From Mesorhabditis belari (Eukaryota > Nematoda > Chromadorea > Rhabditida > Rhabditidae), in assembly GCA_958450365.1 (NCBI GenBank), contig CAUEEP010000732.1, positions 3,101,001 through 3,165,000 of the forward strand: DNA of 64,000 nt, given 5' to 3'. The stretch's first letter is position 1, and each line of letters starts with the position of its first letter. Both the position numbers and the translations under genes were made by a program. Shown piece after piece: positions 9,730-47,800 of this stretch. Under the pieces are notes generated by a model. It saw only the letters and a list, made by a program, of their open reading frames with translations. It was not told where the DNA came from and made no database searches.

Positions 9730-9884
9730 CTTTGTTCTTCCTAAACCAAAAAATTAAGTGAGAGGTCTATGAAATTTGAGAAAGAGAAAGAAAACCATGT
9801 GCATGATGCAACGAAATGTGTAAGACTGCAGGAAAAACGGGATGTCGTGCGCTAAAAGGCTCAAAAATAGCCTTCAGCCTGCTA

Positions 9885-9960
9885 AAACCCCGCCCCCTCT
9901 GGCGAGACTTTGCCATTGGCAAGCTAAATCCCGCCCCCTCGCACCAGACCCTATATAAGG
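9885..9960 (+). promoter_or_regulatory. Histone H2A promoter: GC boxes, reversed CCAAT box, TATA box
   Basis: CCCCGCCCCCT occurs near 9887 and CCCGCCCCCTC near 9930, with ATTGG (CCAAT on the other strand) near 9915 and TATATAAG at 9953-9960. The TATA box is about 70 nt before the H2A ATG, the normal spacing for histone genes. The order is that of a strong cell-cycle histone promoter. It faces away from rpn-11, whose start is about 155 nt to the left. Confidence 0.75.
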
Positions 9961-10025
9961 CGCTCTTTTCCTTTATCCTTGTTTCCCTCGTTACCAAAGA
10001 CCAGCTGAATCCTCAACCAACAAAA

Positions 10026-10412
10026 ATGACTGGGCGCGGATCGGGAAAGAAGCAGGCGCGATCAAGGACGAACCGGGCCGGGATCGTCTTCCCCGTCGGA
10101 CGAATTCATCGAATGCTCAAGAAAGGCAAATATGGAGCACGCATCGGTGGTGGAGCTCCAGTCTACCTCGCCGCTGTGCTGGAGTATCTCGTCGCGGAAA
10201 TCCTCGAATTGGCGGGCAATGCAGCTCGTGACAACAAGAAAGTGACCATTAGTCCACGACATCTGATGCTGGTTGTGAAGAACGACGAGGAGCTCGATAG
10301 ACTGCTGCAGGGTGTCACGTTCGCACAAGGAGGCGTGGTCCCCCATATCCAACCAGTTCTTCTTGCAAAGTACAAAGCTGGCGACAAGACCGGGAATGAT
10401 GAGACAGATTAG
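10026..10412 (+). CDS. Divergent histone H2A, intronless
   Basis: This is a core histone of the nucleosome, 128 residues, with no intron. The start at 10026 ([14 protein letters not shown]) is chosen because TATA and H2A similarity both point to it; the frame is open further upstream. The fold core is clear: [61 protein letters not shown] and [17 protein letters not shown]. Acidic-patch residues (LEY, AEILE, NDEEL) are kept. Many usually invariant positions differ: AGIVFPV for [17 protein letters not shown] for [22 protein letters not shown] for [20 protein letters not shown] for GVLPNIQA. It lacks H2A.Z features such as its L1 loop. The C-terminal tail is short and acidic. A variant H2A with restricted expression is likely. 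Confidence 0.93.
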
Positions 10413-13870: not shown

Positions 13871-14087
13871 CGGAATCATTGATTGTGAGACGTTTAAAGG
13901 ATTGTTGATTGAAGAAAAGATAATTTCCATACAAATCCTAGGTTTCACTTTGATTTCTGTATTTTTTGAGTGTGCTTTCAAAACCTTTTCTTCAAATCAA
14001 ACATCGACCACGTTTATTTCAATGCACCACATTTGAAAAATTCTATCAAAAAACGAGAAAAACAATTATAACTTTGTTTTTTTCTTT

Positions 14088-15433
14088 TTACCACGAACGC
14101 TCGGGTCGAAGCTTTTGTTGGTTCTGAAAAATGAGATATTTAGTTAAGAAAACTTAGTTAACAAGTTATTTTCTAACTTTTTTCATTTACCATTTCTTGT
14201 TGTTGAACGCCTTTTTGTTGATCGACATCAACGGATCGCCGAAAGCGCAAAAACGGGTGCAAATCGTCGAATTGACGTCTAGAGATTGAAATTTCTAAGC
14301 GAAAAAACAATTCTTTTACAGATATTATTTTAGAGATAATCTAAATTCAATCTAAATCTTTATTTACCTTACATCTTTATCTTTATTTTACCTATCATGC
14401 TTTACCTGAAACGAAGGAATGGCTGAAGATTCTCGTCACCTCCGCTCCTTCGGAAACGAATGAAATGGTCGATGAAATCGGGTGATGAAGCCGATTTTCT
14501 GCACAATTTTCGTATTGCTTTTAGAAAGGAACTTTTTTTGACTCTCGTACTTTATTTGGATTCATTTTTACAACCTAGGCGAATCATCAAAGTTCATCAT
14601 ACTCATGGAAAACTCTGGATGCTTATACTTTATGCTCAAAAACTTGTAAATACATCCTTTCTGATGCACTCAAATCGTTGATATGAATGATTAGTGCACC
14701 AGAAAGAATGCCTTTACGTAGCTCAAAGAATAAGAAAAAGTCTAGCATTGTCTAGTATCGTCTAGTATTAACTGCACAACTTTAGCTATAGTAACTTTGT
14801 TACAAAATGGCTATTAAAGGACCAGGGCAAATAAGGTAAGGCCCGCAAAGTTCGTCAGACCTGGATCTGGACCTCGAACTGGGTCGGAAATTGAACCTGG
14901 ATCTGGGCCTAGCTTTTGGATTTGCCTTGGCTTACATCAGTGGCAACCCTTTGTTTAAGGCTATTTAATCGTTCTACTGAGCTTTTCCTTTGTTTAAAGC
15001 TTTTGAACTTGTCTTGGCTTAGATCCCTATTTGTAGACCCTTTTTTTAAAGCTATTAAATCATTCTATCGTGTCCTTATTTTATAGTCTATCAATTTTTT
15101 AGATTTTTACCTAAATCGCAAGAAATGCTGTAGATTTCCCTCATCAAGTTCATCGCCGGCTCGTCGGAAACGGATGAACGGCTGAATGGCATCCGAGTAG
15201 TCAGCTGAATATTTAATTAAATACAGTTAGGCTAGGTTAGGTTAGCTTAGCTTAGCCTAGCTACAGTAACCCAAGCTATTGATATTCTACTTTAGATTTC
15301 GATATTTTAAAGCTTAATCAATGTTACCCAAAGGACTTTTGCGTATCCTTTGATGGTCTTGTTCAATCGAATCTGAGGTGACAATTTGAAGAAGGGAAAC
15401 TGCCAAAAATGACGAAAATCGAATGGAAAACAT
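14088..15433 (-). CDS. Secreted RF-peptide-like precursor with five FIRF/FLRF repeats and no amidation Gly
   Basis: Five exons join in perfect phase: 15328-15433, 15111-15204, 14406-14498, 14191-14278 and 14088-14123, 138 residues. The start at 15433 follows TTTCAG, a likely spliced-leader acceptor. Residues 1-20 form a signal peptide (hydrophobic FLAVSLLQIV). After a basic site the precursor has five acidic peptides, each ending in an RF dipeptide and followed by RR or RK: ADYSDAIQPFIRF, AGDELDEGNLQHFLRF, SASSPDFIDHFIRF, SGGDENLQPFLRF and QFDDLHPFLRF. The tail is SVDVDQQKGVQQQ and a basic end. The R-F-R-R context fits furin/PC-type cleavage (R-x-R/K-R). Unlike FMRFamide precursors there is no Gly before the basic pair, so an amide cannot form by the usual route. 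Exon borders split the same Arg codon (phase 2), which suggests growth by exon duplication. I know no named family that matches; a peptide hormone or neuropeptide is inferred. Confidence 0.75.
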
Positions 15434-15924
15434 CTGAAAGTTGAAGTTTTATCGAACGTTTTATCGAACGTTAGTTCAGAGAAATCTTGTATAAATGAAA
15501 TAACTAGTTTGCCTTTTTTTCCGGTTTTTTTTTTGACTTGGTTTCATATTTCATACACATGTTTTTGAACCAAAAATCGTAAAGAATCACGCTTTTTGGG
15601 GAAGCTGAATGAACACTTCTTTTCATCAAGCTTTCTTCTTCAGTTGCAGTTTTATTTCTTAAAATGTGTTTAAAAAAATCAAATAAAATGCCATTTTTGA
15701 GGAAAGTTTAAAGTATTTCAAGCATGTAGGAGCGATTTCTCTTGGTTATTTCGAATTTTTGATAGTGATAAGAAGAGTTTTAGCTTTAAAATGGGACTCT
15801 AGTGGAAACAGCTGCTCAAAAATGCTCAAAAAGGTTTAAAGTTTGAAGAATTTAAAGCAAAATTCGAATGAAATGTTCTAAGTTTGAATATCCACCAGTT
15901 TAGAATAAAAGTTGTCTGGATCGG
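15434..15924. other. Intergenic, nothing recognised
   Basis: AT-rich sequence upstream of the peptide-precursor gene. No TATA box or exon-like segment stands out. Confidence 0.4.
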
Positions 15925-44800: not shown

Positions 44801-47800
44801 GAAACACAAGCGTTCTAACTTTTTCCAAGCATCTAATTTCCACAAACCTTTCCAATTTAGCGACCAAATCAGCGAATTTCTTGTTTTTTCCTCGCAATTC
44901 TTCGAAAACTTTCACAGAATCATTGTAATTATTTGTGTATTCCGAATACATCTTCAAAAAAAGGTGCCAACTTTTTCATCACATGCGAGATTCTGAAATA
45001 ATTCTTATAAATTAAAATTTCCAACATTAAAACATTGAAATTAACCATGCTTTCAAGCTATTCAGTTAAAAGAAATAAAGCCATACTACTCTGTATCTTT
45101 GAAATACTTTGAAATCATTCTCCCCACCTTCTCGTATTATTCCACGATCGATTTGCGTCCATCAACTGCGGCAGGAGATGAGTGTTGTGGAAAGTGTGCA
45201 GAGAGGAGATGTTTGAGAACAGTTTACTCACCTAAAAGTTTCGAATAAAGGGAAAAAGCTTGTTTTTAAGTTTACTAGACAACTTCCATTCTAGTTTCAC
45301 CAGTTCTTCCAGTTTCAAACGAATTGAATGATTCGTTTTCTTAGCTCGTTTTCTTCGCTCATTTTCTTAGCTCTTAACTTTCTTAGCTCTTTTCTTGTTG
45401 CAAAATTTTGTCGAAAGATCTCTATCCCCAAAGACACCACCAAACACCACCAATCCACCTATCCAAACACCAGCATCAAGACCATCCTATCTCTAAAGAT
45501 CTCTATCTCTATCTCTAAAGATCTCTATCTCTATCTCTAAAGATCTCTATCTCTAAAGATCTCTATCTCTATCTCTAAAGATCTCTATCTCTAAAGATCT
45601 CTATCTCTAAAGATCTCTATCTCTAACGATCTCTATCTCTAAAGATCTCTAAAGAATCAGCAAGTCTACAGCCAAAATTACAGGACAATCAGGCTAGAAA
45701 CAGCTGAGAAAAGGTGGAATTTCACATCTCTAGACTGAAGTGTTCATAGAGCAAACACAGCCTTTCTACCGCACTTCAAATTCTCCAATTTTCTCCAATC
45801 ATTCATGGGGATTAACGAGAAAAGGGAAAATTTTCAGAAAGGATGTTTTTATATTAGTACAAAGTACATTGAATGAAATGTCTCGAGCTCACTTTTCCTT
45901 TCTCGATGTCACCAGCTTTCTCCATCGCTTCCACCTCTAATCGAAACATCTAAAAAAGAATTTATTTATTAAATAATAAATATAAACCTATCAATTTCTC
46001 TAGTACTTGATTTTTAAGCTTTTTAAAGCTTTTTTCGAGCTTTTTTTCTAAGCTCACTTGATCCAAAAGTCTCAATTTGTCAACATATCGCTGCTCGGAA
46101 TCCACCAGCTCCTTGGCGGCCATTTGAGCCTAGAAATTTGCATTTTGATATCAATATATAAATTTAAATCATTAAATTCATATATATTATTAAAATTCTC
46201 ACCCGATCGGTTTTCTTTTTCCCGACAGACGCCGGTTTGATCGCTTTAATTCCTGGGATTTGCGAAGAAATCGGAAAAACCGATTCCGTGTCCTCAGAAC
46301 CGCTGTGACTGTAAAAATCGATATACTTTTGTATTTTTCATCTTTTATTTTATATTTCTAAAGCAAATCCTCACTGAAAAACCCAGAAATGAGCAGCAAA
46401 AGCTTGGCTCAACTTTGTGCTTGAATCTTTCAATTTATTCAATTTTTGACTTCTTTTATGCTAATTTACATATAAAATTGATTATTTAATGTAAACTAAA
46501 CAATATTGATCTATTTTTTTTATAATTCTAAACACCCACGTGCTGGTTGAGTGCTCATCTTCGTCGTTCTCCTCCTCACTCAAATCCTCCTCGCCCTCAT
46601 CCGAGAGTTTCACCTTGAAACCGCCGTCGGGTCCCTGAAATTAAACAATACATACATAAATACATAAAATATATATATTAGGTTGTCCAGTTATAAATGC
46701 ACGTTTTTAAGATAACAACTCTTTATTTTAAAACCAACAGTTTAACAGCTCAATCAACAATATATTCACCATTTGTTAACAATATTTGTTTCCATCTTCC
46801 ATGCAAAGAATGAATTCCCTCCGCGTAAAAAATTGGCTTGTTTTGAGGCAAAGAAGTCGGCTATCCATTTTTCGACCTCTTGAACACTTCTTTGAACTTG
46901 TTTCCAGCCAAATGGTTTCGCATTGAACGAAATAAATGGTAATCCGAAGGAGAAATATCCGGAGAATATGGCGGATGCGGGAGAGTTTCCCAGCCCAACT
47001 CTTCGAGTTTTTCCTGAACAATCTTTGCAACGTGTGGACGGGCGTTATCTTGAATCAACTTTATGTTTGAGGGATCAAGGCCTTTTGTAGCAATACATTG
47101 TTCACTCGTTCCAGTTGTTGTGCATACGTTTCACCCGTGATTGTTTGTCCAGGTTTAAGCAGCTCAAAATAAACAATGCCTTGGGAATTCCACCAGACAG
47201 TAAGCATTACTTTCTTGCTATGGAAGTCGGGTTTTGGTGTTGGTATTGGCTCCTCACCAGGTTTTAGCCATTGCCGTTTTCGTGTAGAATTATCATATGG
47301 AATCCATTTTTCATCGCAAGTAAGGATTTCATCGTAAAACTCAGTATTTTTGCCAAACGAAGAAGAATACCAGCCATAGTGACACGAGTAGCTTTATTGG
47401 CATTGCTGAGAAGATGAGGAACCCATTTCCCTTGTCGGCTTGTTTTCCTCAATTGATTTAAATGCTCGGAAATTGTTTGAGGGCTTACTCTAAATATTTC
47501 TGCAAATTCACGTGTAGTTTGTCGAGGATCCATTTCTATCGCCTGCTTCAGTACTGCATTATCGATCGCAGGAGGTCGTCGTTGGTGGTCTTCGTCTTCC
47601 AAAGATTCATTTCCTTCTCGAAATCGTTGAAACCATCGGCGACACTGGCTTTCCAAAATAGCATCTTCGCCAAATACTTTGCAGAGATCGCGATGAGATT
47701 CAACGGCATTTTTGCCCAATTTGAAGTCATACCAAAGACTGGCACAAAGACGAAACTTCGTCTCGGTCATCTAAACATGGAAATTAAATCAAAAATGAAT

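Follow-up and report, generated by a model that had tools for sequence, protein, structure and literature searches.

FLP peptides are released mainly by the convertase EGL-3/PC2, with KPC-1 and BLI-4 as furin-like enzymes; carboxypeptidase E strips the basic residues and the C-terminus is amidated with Gly as the donor, a modification stated as required for activity (PMC4196577). Two nematode FLP papers with RF motifs of the kind described below, PMC4058706 and PMC4196577, are both on amidated FLPs. Judged by sequence, the closest known motif is that of flp-13, -P[FLI][ILMV]RFamide, to which peptides like APEASPFIRFamide belong (PMC4058706). Precursors of the FLP-13 and FLP-1 type share with the gene reported here the multiple copies, a PF[IL]RF or NFLRF core, basic sites and phase-2 introns in Arg codons; they differ from it in carrying Gly after RF and in being amidated, and their sites in C. 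elegans are mostly Lys-Arg or a single basic residue.

The nematode NLPs, a catch-all precursor group, have in common with this gene a signal peptide and dibasic-flanked repeats. C. elegans NLP-19 contains a non-amidated peptide ending NFLRF without Gly, an end comparable to those predicted for the present precursor. Arthropod myosuppressin (...DHVFLRFamide) is amidated and single-copy, and peptide 5 of the present precursor, QFDDLHPFLRF, bears a resemblance to it, a resemblance only. Several NLPs are described as having no known relatives outside some lineages, namely nlp-97/98 and nlp-100 to nlp-118 (PMC8764417, PMC9881375), the latter series having been named in Steinernema carpocapsae by mass spectrometry (PMC9881375). 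A non-amidated neuropeptide of Hydra (PMC12440616) offers a precedent for bioactivity without amidation, from another phylum and likened here by description, not by sequence.

Within the 64-kb stretch of Mesorhabditis belari DNA that was analysed (the window), reading of splice sites and frame joins five exons on the minus strand, from 15433 to 14088, into an open frame of 138 amino acids ending in TAA (Table 1). The coordinates given in the original prediction, 14088-15433, were exact. All four introns are GT..AG with GTAA at each donor, that of exon 1 reading GTAACA. The acceptors of exon 3 (GTGCAG) and exon 4 (CTCTAG) are in our judgement weaker than TTTCAG; among 11 AG sites, 14278 alone gives a frame without stops up to the end of peptide 5, and the ten alternative sites in intron 3, tried as exon 4 acceptor, do not keep it. 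In form, the TTTCAG directly before the ATG resembles the acceptors of nematode trans-splicing, from which we infer a putative spliced-leader site.

Table 1. Positions of the features of the window gene (window coordinates) and of two flp-like genes elsewhere in the genome (contig coordinates).
Feature	Position	Strand	Content or reading
TTTCAG acceptor, abuts ATG	15434..15439	-	candidate spliced-leader site or 5' UTR intron end
Exon 1, 106 nt	15328..15433	-	start codon, signal-like MFSIRFSSFLAVSLLQIVTS, pro-region, RIRK, start of peptide 1; ends phase 1
Exon 2, 94 nt	15111..15204	-	remainder of peptide 1 (PFIRF-RR), peptide 2 AGDELDEGNLQHFLRF, R split AG|A, K
Exon 3, 93 nt, symmetric phase 2-2	14406..14498	-	peptide 3 SASSPDFIDHFIRF-RR, peptide 4 SGGDENLQPFLRF, R split AG|A, R
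Exon 4, 88 nt	14191..14278	-	peptide 5 QFDDLHPFLRF-RR, start of C-terminal tail
Exon 5, 36 nt	14088..14123	-	tail NQQKLRPERSW and TAA; acceptor TTTTTCAG
AATAAA poly(A) signal	14013..14018	-	starts 70 nt past the last stop base
flp-13-like gene	C550:2722.7-2723.7 kb		protein search; read by eye without transcripts
flp-1-like gene	C540:714.1-715.0 kb		protein search; read by eye without transcripts

The precursor reads, in order, MFSIRFSSFLAVSLLQIVTSDSIEQDHQRIRK / SPLADYSDAIQPFIRF RR / AGDELDEGNLQHFLRF RK / SASSPDFIDHFIRF RR / SGGDENLQPFLRF RR / QFDDLHPFLRF RR / SVDVDQQKGVQQQEMNQQKLRPERSW. By Kyte-Doolittle hydropathy, the sole measure applied rather than a dedicated predictor, its start is signal-like (peak 2.17, residues 9-19), and the signal-like peptide, taken as the first 20 residues, ends in V-x-S, a sequence suited to signal peptidase. 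Together with the five peptides flanked by basic sites, this bears out the earlier description of a precursor that looks secreted and contains several peptides ending in F[IL]RF. Phase-2 borders had been proposed for exons 2-4 throughout; they are present at the 2/3 and 3/4 junctions, in the same Arg codon, and not elsewhere, the phase being 1 at the start of exon 2 and 0 at the end of exon 4, which leaves exon 3 as the only symmetric 2-2 unit. Growth of the repeats by duplication is nevertheless upheld, since exons 2 and 3 each hold an FIRF peptide followed by an FLRF peptide, which points to an old internal duplication.

Peptides 1-5 end in PFIRF, HFLRF, HFIRF, PFLRF and PFLRF, and when trimmed are acidic, with 2-4 D/E against one R each. 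The five RF-RR/RK motifs are all present as predicted, and Gly follows RF in 0/5. Of the features by which flp genes are recognised, a signal peptide is indicated by hydropathy, repeated xRF with mono- or dibasic flanks is found in 5/5 repeats, and the place of Gly after RF is taken by Arg in 5/5; the description of an nlp gene, a secreted precursor with dibasic-flanked peptides, agrees with the sequence features of the locus. On this basis we would class it as an NLP-type neuropeptide precursor that lacks the Gly of the flp family. Splicing can hide a Gly in M. belari, since an intron splits the Gly codon itself in one repeat of the flp-1-like gene, KPNYLRFG. At the window gene both exon borders that lie in Arg codons read AG|A, and the claim that no Gly is concealed there therefore stands.

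In the two flp-like genes of the same genome, Gly follows RF in 14/14 repeats read (8 in the flp-13-like and 6 in the flp-1-like gene), and a further repeat of the flp-1-like gene, KPNFMRYG, ends in RY, also with Gly. Because a separate flp-13-like gene with Gly exists, the window gene is not M. belari flp-13 itself; a distant common origin of the two is possible. Phase-2 introns split the RF Arg in 3/14 of the flp-1-like and flp-13-like repeats read, whereas the two intron-split codons of the window gene encode the Arg after RF.

These observations bear on the alternative that the locus is a flp gene (flp-13-like, with PFIRF) whose Gly codons have mutated to Arg through local decay or recent change. 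PFIRF and the acidic extensions do resemble FLP-13 peptides, for example APEASPFIRFamide (PMC4058706), and each of the codons CGA, AGA and CGG is one base from a Gly codon. At the amidation position, peptides 1-5 carry CGA, AGA, CGA, AGA and CGG, both AGA codons being intron-split as AG|A. Over the 10 repeat pairs, which are non-independent and drawn from five repeats of one gene rather than from several species, differences in the R-F-R core total 23 synonymous and 0 nonsynonymous (pS 0.93, pN 0), and those in the Arg codon at the Gly position total 10.0 and 0, respectively. The repeats thus look old, with synonymous sites near saturation and the Arg apparently maintained meanwhile. As the Arg codons vary only synonymously, the residue looks maintained rather than like a decaying Gly. 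The flp-13-like gene with Gly in 8/8 repeats read, the position of the introns in the Arg after RF, as against RF Arg and Gly splits in the flp-like genes, and basic pairs of RR and RK, not KR, likewise speak against decay. Decay of a Gly-bearing flp, named in the original prediction as the finding that would overturn it, is consequently quite unlikely, given the synonymous Arg codons and the separate Gly-bearing flp-13-like and flp-1-like genes.

A sixth basic pair, absent from the original prediction, precedes peptide 1 (RIRK) and places the N-terminus of that peptide at SPLADY. All pairs (6/6) stand in the context R-x-R-[R/K], comprising four RR and two RK, with no KR. The multibasic sites of C. 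elegans FLPs are listed as KR 108, RK 10, KK 9, RR 3 and KRR 1 (PMC4196577, Table 2), and Lys-Arg thus makes up 108/131 of them against 0/6 in the precursor (Fisher 6e-5, for six non-independent sites of one gene). The furin-fitting context proposed earlier holds for the R-x-R-R sites (4/6) and fails for the R-x-R-K sites, with Lys at P1 (2/6). RFRK and RIRK being unsuited to furin, PC2-type cutting may be needed at those two sites.

If the gene is expressed and its product secreted, the signal peptide would be removed, and proprotein convertases would then cleave on the C-terminal side of R-x-R-[R/K]. For the four R-x-R-R sites the best fit would be an enzyme of furin type (KPC-1/BLI-4 class), and one of PC2 type (EGL-3 class) could act at all six. 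The basic residues would then be trimmed by carboxypeptidase E. Free-acid F[IL]RF ends are what the FLP processing rules predict for a precursor devoid of Gly, and the products would be five acidic peptides of 11-16 residues, peptide 5 possibly bearing an N-terminal pyroglutamate. PAM-type enzymes could not amidate these peptides because no Gly is available, and their receptor would be one that tolerates a free C-terminus, rather than a classical FLP receptor.

Sites of furin type hint at constitutive secretion, a route on which carboxypeptidase E might be lacking. The arginines might in that case stay on, and the mature products would be F[IL]RF-R or F[IL]RF-RR, or else larger pieces, that is, a secreted basic-motif or antimicrobial peptide without carboxypeptidase trimming, and the constancy of the Arg in 5/5 repeats would fit such an outcome. 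Yet the trimmed peptides, with their surplus of D/E over R, differ from typical cationic antimicrobials, and multiple copies sharing a single C-terminus are the usual design among neuropeptides, so that we regard untrimmed products as unlikely.

We searched the assembly (207.6 Mb, 714 contigs) for copies of the gene and found three near-identical whole copies, one in the window and two at C550:191-192 kb and C550:1364-1366 kb. One of the latter (L016) is identical to the window gene in all five exons. The other (L017) is identical in four of the five; in its exon 3, a single nucleotide inserted in a C run breaks the frame. The five-exon frame is thereby intact in 2/3 whole copies, and in the aligned 1.75 kb of the three the 12 substitution columns all fall outside the exons. 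Gap openings relate to mismatches as 30 to 20 and 27 to 5 in the comparisons with L017, and as 14 to 18 in that without it; given this gap excess in both L017 comparisons, an assembly error is possible for the frame break.

About 91 kb from each whole copy lies a partial copy, B, limited to exons 3 and 4. The piece measures approximately 540 bp, corresponds to window 14212-14749 and is found at C545:3207.7-3208.2 kb, C550:284 kb and C550:1457 kb. The pair of a whole copy and B is thus present three times, which suggests a large duplication or haplotypes that were left uncollapsed. When the window gene is compared with B1, exon 3 differs at 0/93 positions and the flanking introns at 27/354 (7.6%; Fisher 0.0024), a contrast that weakens to ~0.03, by arithmetic with half the flank rate, if only the window copy was under constraint; gene conversion over exon 3 could also explain the identity. 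B2 has one substitution in exon 3 and B3 three inserted bases. Exon 4 of B is decayed, differing at 10/67 positions, some of them where the homology frays out, and has LLRFWR in place of the motif. Exons 1-2 gave no convincing tblastn match near B1 among the best 20 matches listed, over ~10 kb upstream and 9 kb downstream.

The broken frame in 1/3 whole copies (L017) and the decayed exon 4 of B are what a pseudogene, or open frames arising by chance, would lead one to expect. Both are very improbable here, as the five-exon frame is intact in 2/3 copies, the pattern across the repeats is purifying and the motifs cluster above random expectation. All 5/5 occurrences of F[ILMV]RFR in the six frames of the window are the precursor's own, whereas 100 first-order Markov sequences of 64 kb each contained a mean of 0.74 such motifs, at the highest 4, and no more than 1 per 1.3 kb. 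In all likelihood, then, this is a well-formed gene whose product is an F[IL]RF precursor of multi-copy type that retains Arg where the amidation Gly is expected.

Taken further, we think it rather probable that the locus is a functional nematode gene for an NLP-type precursor that yields F[IL]RF peptides as free acids. A bolder account, which we offer tentatively as a serious possibility short of a probable one, is that an FLP-like family gave up amidation by adopting Arg for Gly in every repeat, and now signals through free acids and a receptor of its own. The replacing Arg would complete the R-x-R-[R/K] convertase site, and the RF Arg would serve both as part of the peptide end and as P4 of the protease site; F[IL]RF peptides of this kind would then exist beside amidated FLPs of the flp-1 and flp-13 type in the same animal. 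Should the free acids be active, they would allow a direct test of the role of the amide in RF-peptide signalling and would point to an unrecognised receptor.

In the pan-phylum FLP survey, hits from BLAST were inspected for FLP motifs at the C-terminus (PMC11658156), and such a procedure could overlook an RF family with Arg for Gly. In the main text of the papers searched, no NLP was found in which an F[IL]RF-RR arrangement is repeated, and strings of F[IL]RF-RR/RK in the full text returned only matches unrelated by title. The motifs given for nlp-85 to nlp-98 in the relevant section of PMC8764417 do not match the precursor. One of the S. carpocapsae nlp-100 to nlp-118, whose sequences are given in supplements, could be the family of the window gene.

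Pfam returned a single, sub-threshold match to the precursor (NET2A_C, E 0.045, 14 bits against a cut-off of 27). FARP (PF01581) was not found in the precursor, and the genome-wide search with this family was silent in all 14 controls, missing the M. belari flp-like genes as well, so that its silence carries no information. The PDB gave no match to the precursor at E 1 or better, and the bacterial and archaeal collection no relative, as expected of a collection not meant to hold nematodes. Genome-wide, F[ILV]RFR[RK]-like DNA patterns (346 + 429) were not in excess of reversed-pattern controls (657 + 661), and neither were F[ILV]RFG[RK]-like patterns (126 + 125 against 158 + 238), which makes these counts uninformative. 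Rfam detected no family in the window. Across the assembly, 18S rRNA-like stretches occur on many contigs (36 places), and the one at C569:288000-291500 lies inside repeat-like DNA and is not a full rRNA gene. Elsewhere in the window we recognised by eye an open frame that is histone H2A-like (9807-10412, plus strand) and open frames resembling a mariner-type transposase (47061-47770, minus strand).
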